Shown here one piece after another: positions 1-8,004 of a stretch of DNA of 8,004 bases. Position 1 is the stretch's first letter. Every line of letters starts with the position of its first letter. The translations under genes and the position numbers were made by a program. Source of the stretch: Candidatus Helarchaeota archaeon (GTDB lineage: Archaea > Asgardarchaeota > Lokiarchaeia > Helarchaeales > HEL-GB-A); NCBI GenBank assembly GCA_016840125.1, contig JAEOSY010000220.1, positions 1 to 8,004 of the forward strand. Direction: 5' to 3'. The notes under the pieces were generated by a model, which ran no database searches, was not told the DNA's origin, and saw only the letters and a program-made list of their open reading frames with translations.

Positions 1-894
1 CCCATTCCAAATCGTAAATTGATAGAGTTTAATTCTAAACTTGCAAGCAAATCAACTTCCATCTTATCAAGTCGAGGGTGCCCATTCCAGTGCCGATTTT
101 GCACATTTTCAATAGTGATGGGGACAAAGTGGCGCCCTCGTTCTGTAAAGAATGTAATAGAGGAAATAAAATTACTCCAGGACCAAGGCTATAGAGACAT
201 AGCTTTCATTGATGATAATTTTACTTTAGATAAAAAAAGAATATTTCGATTATGTGCTGGAATAAAAAGAAATCATTTAGATAATATAAGATTTGTAGGC
301 GATTCCAGAGTTGAGAATGCGACCGTTGATATTTGTAGAGCACTTGTTACAGCCCACTTCGTTCAATTGGTCTTCGGAATCGAAAGTGGTACTCAACGAA
401 TTCTGGATTATTACAACAAGGGGATAAATCTCGCCCAAATCAAACAAGCAGTAAAGAATACAAATAAAACACGATTAGAAATTATTTATGGGTCTTTTAT
501 ATTAGGAGCACCTTCTGAAACGCTTTCAGAAGCTAGAGATACCATTAAGTTTGCCAATAAACTAGGTATCACGATTCCAATCTTTCAGATATTATATGCG
601 AATCCAATCTCCCCGATTTATCGAGAACTTGTAGAAAATGGTCAATACCTCCCTCAAGAAGATGACTGGAAAAGAGTCTTTAAAATCCCCGATATTTCTC
701 CTACGTCTATCCCAACCAACGTATTGATGAGACTGTTAGAAGAGGGAGTTAATCAGATTGTTGGTAAGAGACGGATTATTCACCATCTTTTTAAAGCCTT
801 AAAATACAAATATTATATTGATACCATAACCGCTTCAATACTTAAAAGAAAAGTTAAAAGAGTTGAAAGCCATGTTCAACAAAAAAACGCTTAG
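1..894 (+). CDS. B12-binding radical SAM protein RS1 (5' end outside window)
   Basis: The reading frame is already open at base 1 and encodes PIPNRK before a TTG at 19. That stretch matches PIPDRK at residues 178-183 of the paralogue at 1102, so the TTG is not the start and about 180 N-terminal residues, presumably the cobalamin-binding domain, lie outside the window. The visible 297 residues hold the radical SAM core. The CX3CX2C cluster motif is at fragment residues 27, 31 and 34 and should ligate the 4Fe-4S cluster that cleaves S-adenosylmethionine. Further family signatures are FIDDNFTL, FGIESGTQRILDYY and LGAPSET. By eye about half the residues match RS2, so the two look like a tandem duplication. 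The 3' end overlaps the next small gene by 23 bases, which suggests translational coupling. The substrate is unknown. The radical SAM call is secure and B12 binding is inferred from the paralogues. Confidence 0.93.
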   Translation, partial: PIPNRKLIEFNSKLASKSTSILSSRGCPFQCRFCTFSIVMGTKWRPRSVKNVIEEIKLLQDQGYRDIAFIDDNFTLDKKRIFRLCAGIKRNHLDNIRFVGDSRVENATVDICRALVTAHFVQLVFGIESGTQRILDYYNKGINLAQIKQAVKNTNKTRLEIIYGSFILGAPSETLSEARDTIKFANKLGITIPIFQILYANPISPIYRELVENGQYLPQEDDWKRVFKIPDISPTSIPTNVLMRLLEEGVNQIVGKRRIIHHLFKALKYKYYIDTITASILKRKVKRVESHVQQKNA

Positions 895-1081
895 AATTTT
901 ATTCAAACTCTGTGCGCTATTTGGATTTCTGCCCTTATTTTTCCTCGCGCTATTTTCTTCGAATTTCCTCCAAAATATTTTGAAAAAACCAATCGAAGAA
1001 CTCGGGGCGGAAGATGTTAATCGCATATTAGCAGAAAAAAGCTTATTTGCAATTTTTGATTTTATGAAATACAAGAAATAA
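872..1081 (+). CDS. Small single-pass membrane protein SmA, partner-type protein of RS1
   Basis: This 69-residue protein belongs to no family I recognise. A short basic N-terminus is followed by a hydrophobic helix at about residues 9-30 with a Pro at 21, then a Leu-Lys-Lys stretch, then G45-A-E-D and, 18 residues after that Gly, F62-D63 near a lysine-rich C-terminus. SmB has G45 and F62-D63 at identical positions, which supports both reading frames and the ATG start at 872. A TTG at 863 would add three residues but would break this register. No strong Shine-Dalgarno sequence is visible. The gene overlaps the end of RS1, so translation may be coupled to it. It is probably membrane-anchored with the C-terminal helix on one face. 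A role as anchor, recruiter or stabiliser of the radical SAM enzyme is inference. Confidence 0.72.
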   Translation: MFNKKTLRILFKLCALFGFLPLFFLALFSSNFLQNILKKPIEELGAEDVNRILAEKSLFAIFDFMKYKK

Positions 1082-1101
1082 CTCCATCTAGTTGATTCAA
1101 T

Positions 1102-2496
1102 GTGGATGTACTTTTATTTAATTTAGCTGAACTGATTGATGAAAAGGGACAGGAAAAGGAGTATTTAATTCCCCAAATTCTGGTTCCACCCCTAGGATTG
1201 CTATACATAGGACAGATATTAAGCGATAACAGTTATAGCGTAAATGTTTATGATCAACCCGTTACGGGAGCCAACAATGACAAAATAATGAAGTTAGTGA
1301 AGAAGTTAAACCCAAAACTTGTTGGATTCTCAGTATTGACTGATAATATATGGACCACTTTTAACCTTCTTAAAAGAATTAAGGAGTGGAATCCGAATAT
1401 TATCTCAGTAGCGGGTAATTATTTTGCAATGTATTTCCCTGAAAAATTGATGAATGAAGTTGATTTCGACTATTGTGTTCGGGGTGAAGCCGAGTATTCA
1501 TTTCTGAATCTAGTTAATCAAATATTTAAAAAGAAGTCCGATTTTAAGGAAATTAAGGGTATTACTTACCGTGAAAATAACGTAATTAAATCCACACCAC
1601 TTCCGAAACCTCTGAAGAATTTGGATGAACTTCCGATTCCAGACCGGAAATTAATAGATTTTAATTATGGACTAGACCAAAGAGCAACATCAATAATAAC
1701 CAGTAGAGGTTGTCCGTTTCAATGTAGGTTCTGTAACAATCCAACTATAACGGGCAAGCCTTGGCGTCCCCGATCGGCTGAAAATGTCGTTGAAGAAGTA
1801 AAATTAATGAAAGATCAAGGATTTAAAGATATTTTCTTTATAGATGATAATTTAACTTTGAGCCAGAAGAGGATGTATAAAATATGTGCTGGAATCAAGA
1901 GGAACAAGTTAGATGATCTGAATTATCATGGAGATTGTAGGGTAGATAATGTCTCATTAACATTATTTAGGGCACTTGTTTCATGTAATTTTAAACAAAT
2001 TCTCTTTGGTATTGAAAGTGCGAACCAACGAATTTTAGATTATTATCAGAAAGGGATAACTGTTGCTCAAGCTGAGCAAGCAGTGAAAACGGCAAAGAAA
2101 GCACGAATGGAGCTCGTCTTTGGGTCCTTCATCTTTGGTGCTCCTGATGAAACTTACTCTGAAGCCCTCAAAACCCTTAAATTTGCTTTAAAACTAAAGC
2201 TAAATTATACAGTTCTTCAAATATTATATGTCCTTCCAATATCTCCAATCTATCAAGAATTGGTAGATAATAATCTATATACTCCCAAAGAAGATGACTG
2301 GAAAAAAGTTTTTAGAGTCTCAGACATATCTCCTACTGCGATTCGAACAGAATTACTACTAAAACTTGTAGATGAGGGTTTTATTCGCTTATTTAACAGG
2401 AGAGGGGTTTTTAAATATCTTTTGAACACGATAATGAATACTTATTATACGGATAATGTTGTTAAATCGGTTAGAGGTTATAAAAGGAGTGAATAA
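1102..2496 (+). CDS. B12-binding radical SAM protein RS2
   Basis: This is a full-length 464-residue protein with an N-terminal Rossmann-like cobalamin-binding domain (about 1-140), a linker ending in LPIPDRKLI (177-185), a radical SAM core (about 195-400) and a C-terminal tail rich in basic and aromatic residues. The cluster cysteines are C204, C208 and C211. The B12 motif DxHxxG appears as D51-Q-P53-V-T-G56, with no His to ligate cobalt. SVL (77-79) and A104-G105-N106 stand where SxL and GG are expected. Such enzymes often methylate unactivated carbons or rearrange rings, but the substrate cannot be read here. The GTG start at 1102 has no clear Shine-Dalgarno sequence. It is chosen because TGA closes the frame at 1093 and because MDVLLFN aligns without gaps to the N-termini of RS3 and RS4. 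It follows SmA by 20 bases and precedes SmB by 4, so it is probably in one operon with RS1. Confidence 0.95.
   Translation: MDVLLFNLAELIDEKGQEKEYLIPQILVPPLGLLYIGQILSDNSYSVNVYDQPVTGANNDKIMKLVKKLNPKLVGFSVLTDNIWTTFNLLKRIKEWNPNIISVAGNYFAMYFPEKLMNEVDFDYCVRGEAEYSFLNLVNQIFKKKSDFKEIKGITYRENNVIKSTPLPKPLKNLDELPIPDRKLIDFNYGLDQRATSIITSRGCPFQCRFCNNPTITGKPWRPRSAENVVEEVKLMKDQGFKDIFFIDDNLTLSQKRMYKICAGIKRNKLDDLNYHGDCRVDNVSLTLFRALVSCNFKQILFGIESANQRILDYYQKGITVAQAEQAVKTAKKARMELVFGSFIFGAPDETYSEALKTLKFALKLKLNYTVLQILYVLPISPIYQELVDNNLYTPKEDDWKKVFRVSDISPTAIRTELLLKLVDEGFIRLFNRRGVFKYLLNTIMNTYYTDNVVKSVRGYKRSE
2484..2489 (+). promoter_or_regulatory. Shine-Dalgarno AAGGAG for the TTG start of SmB
   Basis: AAGGAG lies in the last codons of RS2, 11 bases before the TTG at 2501. 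It is too late to serve the ATG at 2456 and overlaps the GTG at 2489, so it favours TTG 2501 as the initiation codon. Its position inside the upstream gene suggests coupled translation. Confidence 0.6.
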
Positions 2497-2500
2497 TAAC

Positions 2501-2722
2501 TTGAAAATCGACGAACTATTGAGATACTTATTAAAAACCTTCATAATAGTTTATTTCCCTATTATACTAATTGCTACTCTTTTATTTTCTTACTATTTCG
2601 AGAGAGTCCTCAGAGTTGCATTGAAAAAAGCTGGTAGAGACAAACTCGTTCGCCTAGTAGGATATCGAGGATTTATTGGGATTTTTGATTTAATGGGTGA
2701 GAAAGAGGAAGAGAATTCTTAA
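2501..2722 (+). CDS. Small single-pass membrane protein SmB, follows RS2
   Basis: This is a 73-residue relative of SmA. A short N-terminus (MKIDELLRYLLK) leads into a hydrophobic segment at about residues 13-33 with Pro at 20. The rest is basic and amphipathic: V-L-R, then G45-R-D-K, then F62-D63-L-M and an acidic Lys/Glu tail. G45 and F62-D63 fall at the same residue numbers as in SmA when translation starts at TTG 2501. This is why that start is preferred over ATG 2456, which would give 88 residues and overlap RS2 by 41 bases. It lies 4 bases after the RS2 stop and is almost certainly co-transcribed with it. Its end faces RS3 convergently with only 39 bases between. The function is unknown. 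A membrane partner of RS2 is the simplest reading. Confidence 0.75.
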   Translation: MKIDELLRYLLKTFIIVYFPIILIATLLFSYYFERVLRVALKKAGRDKLVRLVGYRGFIGIFDLMGEKEEENS

Positions 2723-2761
2723 TTTTCTATGATTTATTAAATAGAGCCGATCTCAAATACG

Positions 2762-4162
2762 TTAAAAATTTAAGCTCTTTCGTTGGAGAAAATGATAAAC
2801 CACCCGAAGTCTATAGGGATTTGCTGCAGATTTTAGGAACTGATAAATCATATAATTTCTATTCGTAACGAATTCTTTAAATCCCCACTTTGCCACCACT
2901 TCTAGGTATTGACGGCTCAAAGAATTCGGCACTACATCCGCTGCAGGAAGCTCCCTACACCAATCTTTTTTGTGATCGATATACCCTTTACCAACACACT
3001 CCTGATATAACTCGGTTCCAGGTGAGAGAAAGAGTATTTGAAATTGTGGTGTAGTAAGGCCGTATTTTTGGAGTTTTAAACCAAATTTTATTGTATTTAT
3101 GACTTCTTCACGGGTTTCAATGGGTGCACCGATGATGAATCCTGCGCCAATATAATCTATTCCTGCTTTTTTTGAATTTTTAATTGCAGTAATTGCCATG
3201 GGAGGGGTTGTTTTTTTAGCGTAGTAATCCAAAATTCGTTGGTTCGCACTTTCAATACCATATACTAGTGACTTGCAGCCCGCCTCTACCAAAGTTCTTA
3301 AAAAGCGAGTGTTACTTTGATTAACTCGTCCAACTGCATGCCAAACGAAGTCAAGTTTCTCTTTTTTCATTTGATGGCAAAATTTCAAGGTCCTTTTCGC
3401 ATTTGCATTGAAACAGTCATCAGTATATAACAATTCTTTAAAACCCGCCTCTTGTAGGTAAAGAAGTTCTTCGATAAGATTTTTGATGGAACGTAACCGC
3501 CACCGATCTCTAGCAAATGTCCTACAACTACAAAATCGACACTTGTAGGGGCAACCGCGAGACGAGATCAATGTTGTGGACTTTCCGGAGTATTCGTAGC
3601 TCTGACGTGACAATTTGCGATTAGGGATGGGAATCGTATCTAAATCTTCAATCAGGGGTCTATCTATATTTTCAATTATTTTTCCATTATCTCTATACGT
3701 AATACCTAACACTTTACTCAATGGTTTCTCCCGCTCTACAGTTTCTAAAAGCTCTGAAATTGTAAGTTCCCCTTCACCTCGAACACAAAAATCCACATCA
3801 TCACAATATTTTATTATATCCCGCGCACAAAAAGTGGCTGCGTAACCCCCATATACAATGACGACGTTGGGATTCCATTCCTTCATCCGCCTTGCTATAA
3901 TATTACAGGTAGGAAGATTAGCAGATAGCACAGTAAATCCTAAGACATCGGGATCTACCTTTTTTAGCCAATCAATAATAGAACTAATAGAAGACCCAGT
4001 AACGTTATGGTCATAGAGAAGAACTTTATGTCCATCATCCAATAGAACTTGACCCACATATAAAATACCTAAAGGCATATGGTATTTTTGAAGTAATTTA
4101 AATTCTTCTCCTTCAGTGTCTGATGTACTAAACTCTCCGGGGTAAATGAGCACGACTTTCAT
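2762..4162 (-). CDS. B12-binding radical SAM protein RS3
   Basis: This 466-residue protein has the same architecture as RS2: a B12-binding Rossmann domain at about 1-140, a linker with IPIPNRKL (177-184) and a radical SAM core with C204, C208 and C211. The DxHxxG motif is D51-H-N53-V-T-G56, so Asn replaces the cobalt-ligating His. TVL (77-79) and Y104-G105-G106 match the remaining B12 motifs well. Beyond the cluster motif it has an extra C213 and a C250 directly after the Asp pair in YTDDCF. RS4 shares the latter but RS1 and RS2 carry Asn there. The C-terminus NPYRL resembles SPYRL of RS4, so RS3 groups with RS4. The ATG at 4162 is preceded by AAGGA (4170-4174) at 7-base spacing. It is the only radical SAM gene here without a small membrane gene just downstream. 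SmC is divergent from it and may be its partner. The substrate is unknown. Confidence 0.95.
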   Translation of the reverse strand: MKVVLIYPGEFSTSDTEGEEFKLLQKYHMPLGILYVGQVLLDDGHKVLLYDHNVTGSSISSIIDWLKKVDPDVLGFTVLSANLPTCNIIARRMKEWNPNVVIVYGGYAATFCARDIIKYCDDVDFCVRGEGELTISELLETVEREKPLSKVLGITYRDNGKIIENIDRPLIEDLDTIPIPNRKLSRQSYEYSGKSTTLISSRGCPYKCRFCSCRTFARDRWRLRSIKNLIEELLYLQEAGFKELLYTDDCFNANAKRTLKFCHQMKKEKLDFVWHAVGRVNQSNTRFLRTLVEAGCKSLVYGIESANQRILDYYAKKTTPPMAITAIKNSKKAGIDYIGAGFIIGAPIETREEVINTIKFGLKLQKYGLTTPQFQILFLSPGTELYQECVGKGYIDHKKDWCRELPAADVVPNSLSRQYLEVVAKWGFKEFVTNRNYMIYQFLKSAANPYRLRVVYHFLQRKSLNF

Positions 4163-4277
4163 GGGTTTATCCTTTTCAGAAAATTTTGGTTTATTTATGG
4201 TTTATTAGTTTAGAGTATTTTTAAATATCTTTTTATTTGAAAACTAAATTAGTTTATAAGATAATGAAGTGATTTTG
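4163..4277. promoter_or_regulatory. Divergent promoter region between RS3 and SmC/RS4
   Basis: This 115-base, very AT-rich gap separates two genes read in opposite directions and should hold both promoters. The best archaeal TATA-like element is TTTTTAAATA at 4218-4227, which is nearly symmetrical and could serve either strand. It lies about 50 bases before SmC and about 56 bases before RS3, leaving room for transcription to begin about 25 bases downstream and give short leaders. A second TTTATAAG at 4253-4260 is only 17 bases from the SmC ATG, too close unless that mRNA is leaderless. Promoter positions are inferred from composition and spacing. Confidence 0.5.
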
Positions 4278-4502
4278 ATGACCGAGAAGCGTGCAGCTCT
4301 TTTTTCGATACTTCTTTCAGTATTATTACTAATATTTTCAATCATAATAATCCCAGTTTTAATCGTATTTACAGATTTATTAAAAAAGAAGATTGATGTA
4401 GCATTTGAAACCTTTGGACGTGATGATACAGTAAAGTTAATCGCATATTTTCCGTTGTTTGGACATTTTAAAGTAATTTTTGGAACAAAAAGAAAAAAAT
4501 GA
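4278..4502 (+). CDS. Small single-pass membrane protein SmC
   Basis: This 74-residue protein is a third member of the small membrane family. A basic start (MTEKR) is followed by a long hydrophobic helix at about residues 8-32 with Pro at 26, then D33-L-L-K-K-K, then G47-R-D-D-T-V and, 18 residues after that Gly, K65 in HFKVIF, ending in a Lys/Arg-rich tail. The Asp seen at this position in SmA, SmB and SmD is Lys here. ATG 4278 is chosen for its length match to the relatives, with GTGAT at 4269-4273 as a weak ribosome-binding match. GTG 4269 and TTG 4275 are possible alternatives. Unlike the others it precedes a radical SAM gene, by 44 bases, and is divergent from RS3. It may be the leading gene of an operon with RS4, the displaced partner of RS3, or both. 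Confidence 0.7.
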   Translation: MTEKRAALFSILLSVLLLIFSIIIIPVLIVFTDLLKKKIDVAFETFGRDDTVKLIAYFPLFGHFKVIFGTKRKK

Positions 4503-4531
4503 AATTATGAATTTCAATTAAACCCATAACT

Positions 4532-4545
4532 AGAAGGAACCTTCT
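4532..4545 (+). promoter_or_regulatory. Shine-Dalgarno of RS4 inside a small inverted repeat
   Basis: AGAAGGAACCTTCT contains AAGGA at 4534-4538, 8 bases before the RS4 ATG, so it sets that start. The same bases form an inverted repeat: AGAAG and CTTCT could pair around a GAAC loop and partly hide the ribosome-binding site. The stem is only 5-6 base pairs, so real control is uncertain. Confidence 0.45.
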
Positions 4546-4546
4546 G

Positions 4547-5932
4547 ATGCGAATTGCCCTGATTAATCCTGCGCCGATATTAGAAAGCGAAATTGAGATT
4601 AAGACACGACAAAAAACATGGCCACCACTCGGATTATTGTATATTGGAGAAGTTTTAAGGCAAGCTGGACATGATATAAAGATCCTAGATCAAGAGGTTA
4701 CGGCCTATTCATATTCACAAGTCTTAGATTGGATTAAGCAGAGAGACCCAGAGGTTTTAGGATTATCTCCACTTACGATATCCTTAGATTCGGCCCTGAA
4801 TATTGCAAAGGTAGCAAAAGGCTGGAATGAAAACATTAATATTATTTTTGGAAACGTAGTTGCTACCCTTTTTCCGCATAACCTTTTAAAAAAATATAGA
4901 TTTATTGATTACTGTCTTGGGGGGGAAGCTGAATCTACTTTCTTAGAAATGGTGAAGTCAATTGAAAGTGACAAAACGCCTCAAGATATTTCAGGATTGA
5001 GTTATAGGAAAAATGGGATATTCAAAACAAACCCGCTACCCCCATTAAATCAGAAATTAGACGCGATTCCATTCCCGGATCGTGAGGCATTGATTGATTT
5101 TGATTATAGAATGGGGTCCCATAAATTCACGCTTATTGCCACATCTAGAGGGTGCCCCTATAAATGTAAATTCTGTGGAGTCCACTTAGTCGCTAATTCA
5201 AAAGGAATTTGGCGTACAAGGTCAGTTGAGAATGTAATTAAAGAGTTACTTTATTTACAGAGTCAGGGCTATCAAGAATTTAGCTTTGTGGATGATTGCT
5301 TTACTGTACAACGAAACAGGACTATAACTTTATGTCATAAAATGAAAAAAGAAAAGATTGATATGATCTGGAGTTGTGAAGGACGGATTGACCAAGGAAC
5401 TCGAGAAGTACTAAGGACGATGCGAGTTGCAAATTGTTATCATATATTATTGGGAATTGAGAGTGCGAATCAACGGATTTTAGACGATTATAACAAGGGA
5501 ATAACACCAGAAATGACTCGAAAAGTTGTTAAGAATGTAAAAAAGGCAGGAATTGAAAATGTGGCGGGTTTATTCGTGGTGGGTGCTCCTGATGAAACAG
5601 TCCAAGAAATTATCAAGACCTTACGATTCGGATTATCTCTTGACTTAACTTTCGTTCAATTCCAATTGCTACATGTTTTATTGGGATCGGAACTTTGGAA
5701 GGATGCTGTTGATAAGGGGTTAATTAATGAGGCGAATGACTGGAATAAATATATTGTAGCTGCAGATATTTATCCCACTTCAGTTAAACGTGAAATTATT
5801 GAAAAATTAATTGATAAGGCATTTATCGAATTTCTTTCGCGCCCTAAATTCTTTTTACGAGAGTTCTTCCGGACAGTTAAAAGTCCCTATCGACTCCAAA
5901 GCTTATTTAGTATTTTTCGTAGACCTACATGA
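4547..5932 (+). CDS. B12-binding radical SAM protein RS4
   Basis: This 461-residue protein has a B12-binding domain at about 1-138, a linker with IPFPDREAL (174-182) and a radical SAM core whose cluster cysteines are C203, C207 and C210. The DxHxxG motif is the most altered of the set, D48-Q-E50-V-T-A53, lacking both the His and the final Gly. SPL (74-76) and G102-N103 follow. Cobalamin binding is therefore inferred from the overall fold and paralogues and could be weaker or lost. VDDCF places C251 after the Asp pair, as in RS3, and GIESANQRILDDY and VGAPDET are family signatures. The C-terminus (FFRTVKSPYRL onward) is basic and aromatic and may touch membrane. ATG 4547 has AAGGA 8 bases upstream. 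It is preceded by SmC and followed after 19 bases by SmD, probably as one transcript. The substrate is unknown. Confidence 0.94.
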   Translation: MRIALINPAPILESEIEIKTRQKTWPPLGLLYIGEVLRQAGHDIKILDQEVTAYSYSQVLDWIKQRDPEVLGLSPLTISLDSALNIAKVAKGWNENINIIFGNVVATLFPHNLLKKYRFIDYCLGGEAESTFLEMVKSIESDKTPQDISGLSYRKNGIFKTNPLPPLNQKLDAIPFPDREALIDFDYRMGSHKFTLIATSRGCPYKCKFCGVHLVANSKGIWRTRSVENVIKELLYLQSQGYQEFSFVDDCFTVQRNRTITLCHKMKKEKIDMIWSCEGRIDQGTREVLRTMRVANCYHILLGIESANQRILDDYNKGITPEMTRKVVKNVKKAGIENVAGLFVVGAPDETVQEIIKTLRFGLSLDLTFVQFQLLHVLLGSELWKDAVDKGLINEANDWNKYIVAADIYPTSVKREIIEKLIDKAFIEFLSRPKFFLREFFRTVKSPYRLQSLFSIFRRPT

Positions 5933-5951
5933 AAAATTTGAAGGTATGAAA

Positions 5952-6197
5952 ATGGCATCTATTTGGAATAAAATCGCTTTACCGGTAATTATGACAATCA
6001 TTTTCTCCTATTTTATCGTACCAATTATCTTAATATCAGTAGTTTTATCACGTTTTTTACGTAGAGAGCTGAAAAATCTGATAAACAGGTATGGGCGGGA
6101 GAACGTGGTAAAAATTACCTTACAAGGCAACATAAAAGGATTATTGGATTTATTTATAAGTAGCCGTAGGGATAAAATTAACCCATCCCCTGAATAA
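5952..6197 (+). CDS. Small single-pass membrane protein SmD, follows RS4
   Basis: This 81-residue protein is the fourth member of the small family. It has a hydrophobic helix at about residues 8-33 with Pro at 11 and 24, then F35-L-R-R, then G48-R-E-N-V-V-K, and L65-D66-L-F with the Asp again 18 residues after the Gly. It ends in a basic tail with two prolines. The frame is open far upstream (to 5811) but that part overlaps RS4. GAAGGT at 5940-5945 lies 6 bases before ATG 5952 and sits too close to ATG 5946, so 5952 is preferred, with two extra residues possible. It follows RS4 by 19 bases, repeating the order RS1-SmA and RS2-SmB. Its stop is 12 bases from the convergent GH3 gene. A function as membrane partner of RS4 is inference. 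Confidence 0.75.
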   Translation: MASIWNKIALPVIMTIIFSYFIVPIILISVVLSRFLRRELKNLINRYGRENVVKITLQGNIKGLLDLFISSRRDKINPSPE

Positions 6198-6209
6198 TTC
6201 GTCTGCCTC

Positions 6210-7748
6210 TTAGATTTCCACTTCATTTTTCACTTTTTCTTCGAACGCTTTCTTATATTCAGCTTTGTCAGTAAGATGCGGAATTTTAGTTTGTTCGAGT
6301 GGAGCACCCTTCTTGGTTTTCGTCTCTAGAACTTCATTATAGCTTCCAGTGTGTAATACCCATAGTTTTGGAGCTTTTAATATACCGATATCTTGACGGA
6401 AATACCGATAGACATCATTCGCTTCGTATAAGTATTTCTCCAGAGTCTTTAGATAATCTGAAAATGAGGATGGTATGGTTTTATCCGAAAACTCTAGAAT
6501 GAAAAGATAGTGAAAGTGAGGTGTGCGTAATCCAATAACTGTAAAATCGGTTAAAATAACGTCGAATTCTTGATTAGTATGATCGATTGCATATAAGATC
6601 TCCTTATGCGAGAGTTTTTCATCAACTAGATTAACCACACCTTTTCGGGAAGAGAAAATGAATAGAGGCGGGTCTTCAGAGATAAACTTGATGATATCCC
6701 CCATATTATAGGCGTATAATCCATTATAAGCTGAGATACATATGTAGTATTCTGTATTCTTTTTGATTTCGTTGATTATGCATCGATCGGTTGGATTATC
6801 AACAGGTATGAACTCAAAGAAATTGGCATTAACCATAGGAGTGAATCCAGGAGTTTCTTGTAGTTGAATCCCTAATACCCCTTCTGTAGCAGATAGTTGC
6901 TCACGAAAATCAATTTTCCGACCAATTAGGGTATAAAGTTTCTTTTCGTAGAATTTAGGGGAAACACCGCCACACAAAGTTAAATGATAATTTGGGAAAA
7001 TTTCACTGATTGTATTTGCACGTACGCCTAATTTTGAACAATTCTCTAAAATTTTTTCAAAAGTATTAGTAATAACGGATGGAACGCCAGAAAATTGCCT
7101 AAAATCTTTGTGTATAACTTCTTTTGTTAATTGGAAATAGCGCTTCTCGATGTCTTTTATTCTGAAAAGATGGAATGGGATATATAATCGCTGTTTAGTA
7201 AAATACTTCCATACTTGCGTTCCACCACGGGGATAGGAAAAAAGTCCCGTTCCATAACCTACTGGCAATTTTCCTTCATAACGCAGGATTGGATATGCAC
7301 CAAAATGGCAGCTCCTCCCATCTAAAAATCGTGAATTATTTCTCGGATCTTCATTAATATATGCAACTAAAATAGCGAAATTAGAAAAATTGACGGTTTT
7401 GAAGGTGTTGTTAACAATGGGAATTAATTTAGGAGTTCCAGCTGTTCCACTAGTTTGACCCCAATAAACCTGTTTAGCAACTGATAATACATTAGTATTT
7501 CCTTCGAGAATAAGTTTAATGTATGGTTCAAAATAATCATAGTTATAAATGGGACAGTTTTCCTGGAATTTCCTTATAGAATGGATCTGGGAAAATTTGT
7601 GGCGTTTTCCAAAAGTAGTTTTTTGATTGCGCTTAATTAAATCTCTAAAAAATTCTTCCTGGGTCTTCTCTGGATCTTTGAAGGGGCGTTTGAGGTAACG
7701 GTCTATATACTTTGAAAGTTTCGTAGCCAAGACTCTGATTAGCCCCAT
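6210..7748 (-). CDS. GH3-family acyl-adenylating enzyme
   Basis: This 512-residue protein resembles the GH3 (auxin-responsive promoter) branch of adenylate-forming enzymes, which activate a carboxylic acid with ATP and, in plants, join it to an amino acid. The three nucleotide-binding motifs are visible: a phosphate loop GQTSGTAGTPK (97-107), SATEG (286-290) in place of the plant YASSE-type motif, and YNMGD (347-351) in place of YRVGD. The C-terminal GAPLEQTKIPHL (481-492) matches the GH3 end region that carries a conserved Gln/Lys-Pro. It is somewhat shorter than plant GH3 proteins (about 600) but normal for prokaryotic ones. No signal peptide or clear membrane helix is seen, so it should be cytosolic. 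ATG 7748 has AAGGT at 7756-7760 at 7-base spacing. The substrate is not known. A divergent acyl-CoA dehydrogenase suggests a fatty or branched acyl acid. Prokaryotic members are mostly uncharacterised. Confidence 0.88.
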   Translation of the reverse strand: MGLIRVLATKLSKYIDRYLKRPFKDPEKTQEEFFRDLIKRNQKTTFGKRHKFSQIHSIRKFQENCPIYNYDYFEPYIKLILEGNTNVLSVAKQVYWGQTSGTAGTPKLIPIVNNTFKTVNFSNFAILVAYINEDPRNNSRFLDGRSCHFGAYPILRYEGKLPVGYGTGLFSYPRGGTQVWKYFTKQRLYIPFHLFRIKDIEKRYFQLTKEVIHKDFRQFSGVPSVITNTFEKILENCSKLGVRANTISEIFPNYHLTLCGGVSPKFYEKKLYTLIGRKIDFREQLSATEGVLGIQLQETPGFTPMVNANFFEFIPVDNPTDRCIINEIKKNTEYYICISAYNGLYAYNMGDIIKFISEDPPLFIFSSRKGVVNLVDEKLSHKEILYAIDHTNQEFDVILTDFTVIGLRTPHFHYLFILEFSDKTIPSSFSDYLKTLEKYLYEANDVYRYFRQDIGILKAPKLWVLHTGSYNEVLETKTKKGAPLEQTKIPHLTDKAEYKKAFEEKVKNEVEI

Positions 7749-7776
7749 ATCACTTACCTTCTAAACATACCGTGCA

Positions 7777-7787
7777 TTAATATAAAT
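7777..7787 (-). promoter_or_regulatory. TATA-like box of the GH3 gene
   Basis: On the minus strand this reads ATTTATATTAA, a good archaeal TATA-box match, preceded by an A-rich stretch (CCAAAATG) that could act as the B-recognition element. Its centre is 34 bases before the ATG at 7748, so transcription would begin about 10 bases before the start codon and the leader would just include the AAGGT ribosome-binding site. Confidence 0.55.
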
Positions 7788-7846
7788 CATTTTGGATAGG
7801 TAAACATCAACTGTATGAATAGGAAAACCCATTTCTTACATTTAGG

Positions 7847-7868
7847 ATTGGAAAAATTCCGACCCAAT
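7847..7868. promoter_or_regulatory. Nested dyad upstream of the acyl-CoA dehydrogenase gene
   Basis: ATTGG (7847-7851) and CCAAT (7864-7868) form an inverted repeat, and inside it GGAA (7850-7853) and TTCC (7857-7860) form a second one. It ends 19 bases before the start codon, a place where a repressor could block transcription. It could also be chance in AT-rich DNA. No clear TATA box was found for this gene. Confidence 0.25.
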
Positions 7869-7887
7869 TTTGTTTATGGGTGTTATT

Positions 7888-8004
7888 ATGAAAGACTTAT
7901 TTTATAATGAGAAAGAATCTGCACTGAAAGCAGAGGTTTCTGACTTTCTAGCAAAAGAACTCGATCCCATTCAGGATGATATTAATCAGACCAAAGAGTT
8001 GCCA
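7888..8004 (+). CDS. Probable acyl-CoA dehydrogenase, N-terminal fragment
   Basis: Only the first 39 codons are in the window and the frame is open to the edge. The residues (MKDLFYNEKESALKAEV, then DFLAKELDPIQDDI and ELP) follow the N-terminal helices of the acyl-CoA dehydrogenase family, where a 'LREEVRxFxxEELxPxxxEID' pattern comes before the FAD-binding part. Such flavoproteins oxidise acyl-CoA to 2-enoyl-CoA and pass electrons to an electron-transfer flavoprotein. The catalytic Glu and FAD motifs are beyond the window, so the call rests on the N-terminus alone. GGTG at 7879-7882, 5 bases upstream, selects ATG 7888. The in-frame ATG 7876 lacks a ribosome-binding site. It is divergent from the GH3 gene, which could supply or draw on the same acyl pool. 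Confidence 0.62.
   Translation, partial: MKDLFYNEKESALKAEVSDFLAKELDPIQDDINQTKELP

Follow-up and report, generated by a model that had tools for sequence, protein, structure and literature searches.

Based on comparative analyses of an 8,004-nucleotide stretch of DNA from a Candidatus Helarchaeota archaeon (contig JAEOSY010000220.1, positions 1 to 8,004; here called the window), we identify a family of small membrane proteins, represented in the window by the genes SmA, SmB, SmC and SmD (Table 1). Comparisons across related genomes support that this family is tied to gene clusters of a single clade of B12-binding radical S-adenosylmethionine (SAM) enzymes, with small-protein subtypes that follow the subtypes of the enzymes. 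Judged from the sequences at hand, the enzyme clade is seen so far only in Helarchaeota-like genomes.

Kinship and shape of the small proteins

The first-pass annotation of the window had placed four open reading frames (ORFs) of 69-81 residues, built to one plan, beside four radical SAM genes. The ORF coordinates bear out the small genes and the enzyme genes are indeed present, with RS1 truncated by the window start; likewise, three of the four small genes trail a radical SAM gene by an overlap or by at most 19 bases (SmA -23, SmB 4, SmD 19). The kinship implied by the shared plan is recovered by a profile built from 31 relatives, window proteins excluded, which scores SmD at 96.6, SmC at 88.4, SmB at 76.5 and SmA at 44.9 bits. 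Shuffled versions of the proteins (250 half-wise shuffles per protein) reach at most 13.9 bits, those of SmA at most 10.0. When profiles of the subtypes, none of which contains SmA, are aligned by hhalign, nine of ten pairs match at 71-99% probability and the tenth, B-prime versus C, at only 9.6%, compared to a maximum of 5.7% in column-shuffled controls (30-40 alignments per pair). By these measures of similarity SmA, SmB, SmC and SmD are members of one protein family. We note that SmB could alternatively start at an ATG at 2456, giving 88 residues; the relative P0026, 74% identical to SmB, has a methionine at the position of the TTG.

The hydrophobic stretch of the family is N-terminal. In the AlphaFold2 model of SmD, two helices (residues 3-47 and 49-76) are separated by a break at Gly48, at a predicted local distance difference test score (pLDDT) of 79.3. 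Conservation runs along the whole small protein, and the profile check proposed at the outset, for residues kept beyond mere hydrophobicity, finds four such columns among 36 aligned members: Ser/Thr33 (35/36), Gly48 (35/36), Asp/Glu/Asn50 (36/36) and Gly63 (35/36), in SmD numbering. A proline in the hydrophobic helix, part of the plan as first described, is found within the region of SmD residues 8-35 in every one of the 36 members. Other elements of that plan require revision: the proposed G-[RA]-[DE] motif is too narrow, since L, V, Q and H also occur at its middle residue and N at its third; the position 18 residues after the Gly is variable (D 18, E 7, K 4, R 4, T 2, S 1); and the supposed Leu-Lys/Arg turn forms part of a helix in the model of SmD. 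Since Cys is absent from 34 of 35 family proteins, and none has more than two His, a role as redox partner was judged unlikely.

The first reading recognised no named family, and this is borne out in Pfam, NCBIfam, PHROGs and the Protein Data Bank (PDB). No Pfam entry scores above cut-off for SmA-SmD or is matched by more than two of the 36 members at E <= 0.01, NCBIfam models give the four proteins at most 14 bits, far under their cut-offs, and PHROGs yields no match at E <= 0.01. A match of SmC to DUF2208 (E 0.0098, under cut-off, two of 36 members) and PDB profile matches to short stretches of designed proteins (best E 0.0096) were taken as hydrophobic noise. The titles and abstract openings of the papers retrieved on radical SAM enzymes, small membrane proteins, Helarchaeota and Asgard lipids contain no description of the family. 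One relative of SmD, the 80-residue P0013, is labelled 'ABC-type bacteriocin/lantibiotic exporter with double-glycine peptidase domain' by one source; it is too short for this, and no Pfam domain is listed for it.

Occurrence of the family

Genome counts were drawn from relatives' genomes, 83 of the class and 227 of the phylum. An initial search from SmD gave eight relatives among nine candidates, and a 16-member profile then retrieved, from 914 candidates, 33 proteins with E <= 0.01, including SmB and SmC of the window, with SmA and SmD absent; the organism names on these entries, where given, are Helarchaeota, Promethearchaeota, Lokiarchaeota or Hodarchaeota. The search of the class (up to 68 candidates scored per genome) returned seven matches at E <= 2e-14, in four Helarchaeota-like genomes. 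All seven sit inside B12 radical SAM clusters, i.e. the homologues are not mainly located away from radical SAM genes, which the first-pass annotation had named as the outcome that would count against its proposal. The 227 phylum genomes, in each of which up to 24 candidates were scored, added no further credible match. Weak matches in eight other class genomes (E 0.0014-0.0076), as well as one in genome G162 (E 4.3e-4, two internal stops), were considered spurious, judged on their scores of 18-22 bits alone.

The ORFs of 60 sources (the window plus 59 loci) include 11 clearly distinguished small proteins, the next-best ORF having an E of 0.19; 10 of the 11 adjoin a radical SAM gene, and no fusion between enzyme and small protein was found in this set. 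The closest named record is Helarchaeota Hel_GB_A (locus L001, 72% identity for RS4), where the gene order repeats the arrangement of the window: GH3, then B-, C- and D-type radical SAM genes each with a small-protein gene, then GH3 again.

The enzyme clade and its pairing with the small proteins

The Radical_SAM domain (PF04055) is above cut-off in all four window enzymes, and CxxxCxxC is read in all four translations. The B12-binding domain (PF02310) lies ahead of it, likewise above cut-off, in RS2-RS4, RS1 being truncated before that region. In a tree of 58 enzymes, 11 of the 12 enzymes of small-protein clusters form one clade with support 100/98, and the same clade appears at support 97 in a quicker tree of 85 enzymes. 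Identical rows and enzymes shorter than 290 residues or below 190 bits were dropped from both trees, and the smaller one also lacks eight distant rows and the rows of near-duplicate genomes. Members of the clade have short C-terminal tails after the SPYRL region, 10-24 residues in 11 rows as compared to 22-41 in 63 of 66 others; of the remaining three, which read 0, 0 and 1, two are truncated where their contig ends (L118, L129) and the third, L107:64-1308, stops 63 bases away from such an end.

Paralogues within the same genomes served as controls. G001 has 16 matches to RS4 but only three small proteins, which lie next to its three clade members, and the loci of off-clade paralogues of G001, G079 and G080 (L130, L121, L122, L123, L127, L128) contain no small protein. 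Across the phylum (up to seven candidates scored per genome), G001, G079 and G080 alone hold enzymes close to RS2, at 51-62% identity; beyond these, identity does not exceed 41%. A 78-residue RS2-like N-terminal fragment, located in G080 where a contig ends (L123:9943-10176, 53% identity) and left out of the trees, is possibly a second B-type or clade member there, with its neighbouring gene out of view.

Distances among the small proteins track distances among the enzymes (r 0.77, 11 pairs, permutation p 5e-5). As the genomes are related, re-pairing was performed within genomes. Of 144 such arrangements of the ten adjacent pairs, the observed one (r 0.81) comes second, bettered solely by an exchange of types A and B, which are sister types in the window. 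This test leaves out the eleventh pair, in which L098:7249-7494 was matched to the enzyme L098:529-1959 by subtraction. A comparison of synonymous rates was saturated or undefined.

SmC is the only window member that is divergent from one enzyme gene and precedes another. In L001 its orthologue shares the strand of the RS3 orthologue and sits 20 bases ahead of it; going by this gene arrangement, RS3 is most likely the cognate enzyme of SmC. The orientation of SmC relative to its presumed enzyme is opposite in the window and in G002 (L098:3996-4211) and the same in L001 (5967-6212), i.e. a local inversion. SmC lies 5' of that enzyme, and the B and D types of the window and L001 lie 3' of theirs.

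Table 1 Features of the window (percentages are amino acid identities; values after Pfam accessions or domain names are E-values).
Feature	Position	Strand	Description
RS1	1..894	+	B-type radical SAM enzyme, 5' part cut by window start, 297 aa left; PF04055 7.6e-20; groups with RS2
SmA	872-1081	+	Small membrane protein, 69 aa; 23-base overlap with RS1; diverges most among the four
RS2	1102..2496	+	B12-binding radical SAM enzyme, 464 aa, B-type; PF02310 4.9e-17, PF04055 4.9e-21; 62% to G001
SmB	2501-2722	+	Small membrane protein, 73 aa, TTG start; 4 bases after RS2
RS3	2762..4162	-	B12-binding radical SAM enzyme, 466 aa, C-type; PF02310 2.8e-19, PF04055 2.1e-21; 63% to L001:4558-5946
SmC	4278-4502	+	Small membrane protein, 74 aa; 115 bases from the divergently oriented RS3 and 44 bases ahead of RS4
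RS4	4547..5932	+	B12-binding radical SAM enzyme, 461 aa, D-type; PF02310 1.5e-19, PF04055 1.9e-22; 72% to L001
SmD	5952-6197	+	Small membrane protein, 81 aa; 19 bases after RS4
GH3	6210..7748	-	GH3-type adenylate-forming acyl-amide ligase, 512 aa; PF03321 8.1e-32, GH3_M 9.5e-12, GH3_C 3.7e-16

The GH3 ligase and other neighbouring genes

The GH3 protein of the window has its N-terminal, central and C-terminal domains (PF03321, PF23571, PF23572) all above cut-off. Among the 83 class genomes PF03321 is found in five, namely the four with small proteins and G020; the chance of this overlap is about three in a million assuming independent genomes, which these are not. Both GH3 genes of G001 are inside the cluster described here, and in G079 and G080 GH3 is on a separate contig from the small protein. 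The GH3 acyl-amide ligase is probably a third part of the system. The original suggestion of a catalyst with a membrane subunit has gained a tie to one enzyme clade with matched subtypes, but a strictly two-part system finds no support, since GH3 probably belongs to it and the small protein L098:7249-7494 adjoins a GH3 gene.

A hexapeptide acyltransferase with a hydrophobic N-terminal part (Pfam assignment on the G001 copy) adjoins GH3 in G001, G002, G079 and G080, with copies at L001:41-1192, L179:12395-13525 and L181:8857-10044, and related genes are found close to radical SAM clusters that lack small proteins elsewhere in the class. Neighbours were counted in 44 cluster loci and 16 control loci, 12 of the latter from G001; the cluster loci are longer on average (12.5 versus 10.7 kb) and represent many related genomes, in part with several loci per genome. 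Counted in this manner (cluster/control), the acyltransferase occurs 11/0, a polysaccharide deacetylase 13/0, a CDP-alcohol phosphotransferase 6/0, GH3 3/0, two glycosyltransferase queries 14/2 and 13/1, and a LuxE-like acyl ligase 8/0. The LuxE-like acyl-adenylating gene adjoins radical SAM genes in four loci (L105:5111-6433, L101:11096-12418, L113:2354-3688, L116:1-651; Pfam assignment on the L105 copy), and may in genomes without small proteins have the same role as GH3 in those that have them. The presence of acyltransferases, LuxE-like ligases and glycosyltransferases near some related clusters points to lipid or glycolipid chemistry, and, judged from neighbouring genes only, the substrate of the enzymes is probably a lipid or glycolipid.

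Further genes were observed in these neighbourhoods. Methylmalonyl-CoA mutase genes are found close to radical SAM clusters that lack small proteins, in 8 of the 44 cluster loci as compared to 1 of the 16 controls, and in L099 they are accompanied by a B12-binding subunit and MeaB. L179 (contig C92 of G002) groups a CobN-type chelatase, a ChlI-like AAA/VWA protein, a glycyl radical enzyme, the acyltransferase, a methyltransferase and two GH3 genes, and an IS605 OrfB/TnpB-like gene (L106:5369-6577) sits in a radical SAM cluster without small proteins. In the window itself, positions 7888-8004 hold the start of an ORF that runs off the end, with an N-terminus that appears acyl-CoA dehydrogenase-like by eye.

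Proposed mechanism and alternatives

We propose that each small protein may be devoted to a single B12 radical SAM enzyme that works on a membrane-bound substrate, either anchoring this enzyme in the membrane or serving as its docking subunit, and we give this explanation roughly an even chance of being correct. A strong hydrophobic segment is lacking in the window enzymes, whose highest 19-residue mean is 1.2-1.6, whereas the small proteins reach 2.2-3.3. For the archaeal lipid enzyme GrsA, two elongated hydrophobic C-terminal helices of its model are described as possible membrane anchors (PMC11186832). The simplest reading is that the anchor is here a separate, enzyme-specific protein. The N-terminal transmembrane helix would keep the small protein in the membrane, and the second helix, following the near-invariant Gly, would be located on the cytosolic side and bind the otherwise soluble enzyme. 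Docking would then place the active site at the membrane-bound substrate, allowing radical modifications such as C-methylation or cyclisation of a lipid or glycolipid, with GH3 presumably making an acyl-amide part. The role would be similar to that proposed for the C-terminal helices of GrsA, albeit fulfilled by a separate polypeptide.

In its fullest form, the proposal is a split radical SAM system, in which soluble B12 enzymes, each with a private, co-evolving two-helix docking subunit, constitute a multi-step radical tailoring line that operates together with GH3 on an amide-containing Asgard membrane lipid; this version we put forward only tentatively, as a possibility less probable than its failure. 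Radical SAM enzymes acting on membrane lipids have to gain access to substrates within the bilayer, by means that are poorly understood. A separate, subtype-matched anchor would make this question testable with small, expressible pairs. If the link to GH3 holds true, the system would moreover represent an amide-type lipid pathway in Asgard archaea, which are thought to be closest to eukaryotes and whose membrane chemistry is debated.

Several observations weigh against the proposed anchor role and its matching to the clade. The twelfth enzyme, L098:2495-3970 of G002, is outside the clade despite a gap of only 25 bases between its end and the small protein L098:3996-4211; adjacency by itself is therefore no marker of the clade. 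Another small protein of G002, L098:7249-7494, follows a GH3 gene without any radical SAM gene beside it, its assigned enzyme being about 5.3 kb away, and when this eleventh pair is added the observed pairing ranks third of 288. Related enzymes in many class genomes work without a small protein, which accordingly is not needed for the chemistry as such. SmA is strongly divergent and lacks the second Gly (Gly63) that is near-invariant elsewhere. The predicted template modelling score of the SmD model is low (0.49), and a fold search of the PDB with this model gave just two matches, meaningless at E 5.1 and 9.3. Finally, the charges flanking the hydrophobic stretch are uneven: the side after the stretch is the more positive in 24 of 35 proteins, and the reverse applies to all seven C-type proteins.

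Among alternative explanations, the small proteins may be membrane scaffolds for GH3 or for the pathway as a whole, their adjacency to radical SAM genes reflecting a shared operon only. GH3 is present in every genome with small proteins, L098:7249-7494 comes directly after a GH3 gene and both GH3 genes of G001 are in the cluster, in agreement with this view; we nevertheless consider it unlikely, as in G079 and G080 the small protein adjoins the B-type enzyme with GH3 on another contig, the subtypes track the enzymes, and the window has four small proteins to one GH3. Short, fast-evolving, single-span proteins are often regulatory, and the very long branches of SmA and the protein G002_y would fit membrane quality-control, regulatory or immunity-type peptides that are co-inherited with the enzymes without contacting them. 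The presence of approximately one copy per clade enzyme, with matched subtypes and none beside the examined paralogues of the same genomes, makes this explanation quite improbable.

Alternatively, each small protein could be the substrate of the neighbouring enzyme, in the manner of the maturation of ribosomally synthesised and post-translationally modified peptides (RiPPs). In RiPP systems with B12 radical SAM enzymes, e.g. ApyD, a small precursor ORF is located beside the enzyme gene, and the same arrangement with matched subtypes is seen here; RS3 and RS4 are also moderately similar to the NCBIfam model of ApyD, and the relative P0013 carries the exporter label quoted above, behind which there is no Pfam domain. 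However, the scores of 161 and 126 bits for RS3 and RS4 are far under the ApyD cut-off of 750, a transmembrane helix fills the N-terminal half of the small proteins, and conservation is whole-length rather than split into a leader and a variable core. Furthermore, genes for a protease, an exporter or a recognition element were recognised neither in the window (by Pfam) nor in L001 (two genes by Pfam, the rest by eye). We regard the substrate role as unlikely, less likely than that of an anchor. That the small ORFs are merely chance hydrophobic reading frames is suggested by their shortness and by third-position differences of SmC and SmB, between the window and L001, that are not much above those at first positions. 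Scores of 45-97 bits with the outside profile as compared to at most 13.9 for shuffles, the hhalign matches between subtypes relative to shuffled controls and the existence of relatives as separate proteins in public genomes led us to reject this explanation, whose probability we consider vanishingly small.

Comparison with known systems

The enzymes proposed to be anchored share features with several known systems. Like BchE and HpnJ (TIGR02026, TIGR03471), which are the best NCBIfam matches of RS1-RS4, they carry a B12-binding domain ahead of the radical SAM domain. In contrast to members of these equivalogs, they score at most 185.4 and 184.7 bits, respectively, against cut-offs of 481.35 and 577.6, and are hence not equivalog members. 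The difference to ApyD-type RiPP systems lies in a small protein that is conserved and predicted to be transmembrane, and in the lack of a recognised maturation or export gene nearby.

The window GH3 resembles OlsH, a GH3-type lyso-ornithine lipid synthetase (NF052613), matching nearly the full model (35-504 of 524, E 3.8e-46), but with 157.7 bits against a cut-off of 620 it is below membership. Segments similar to the three nucleotide-binding motifs given for OlsH (PMC12493201) are TSGTAGTPK, LSATE and GLYAYNMGD. OlsH joins a fatty acid to ornithine and works with OlsI in a planctomycete, and acyloxyacyl amino lipids are stated to be absent from archaea (PMC12493201).

A further parallel is provided by GrsA and GrsB, which are likewise archaeal radical SAM enzymes for a membrane-embedded lipid, being ring synthases of glycerol dialkyl glycerol tetraethers (PMC11186832). 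Compared by description rather than by sequence, GrsA differs in carrying its hydrophobic helices in cis, whereas the window enzymes lack such a segment and are short-tailed, the predicted two-helix protein being encoded separately in the adjacent gene.

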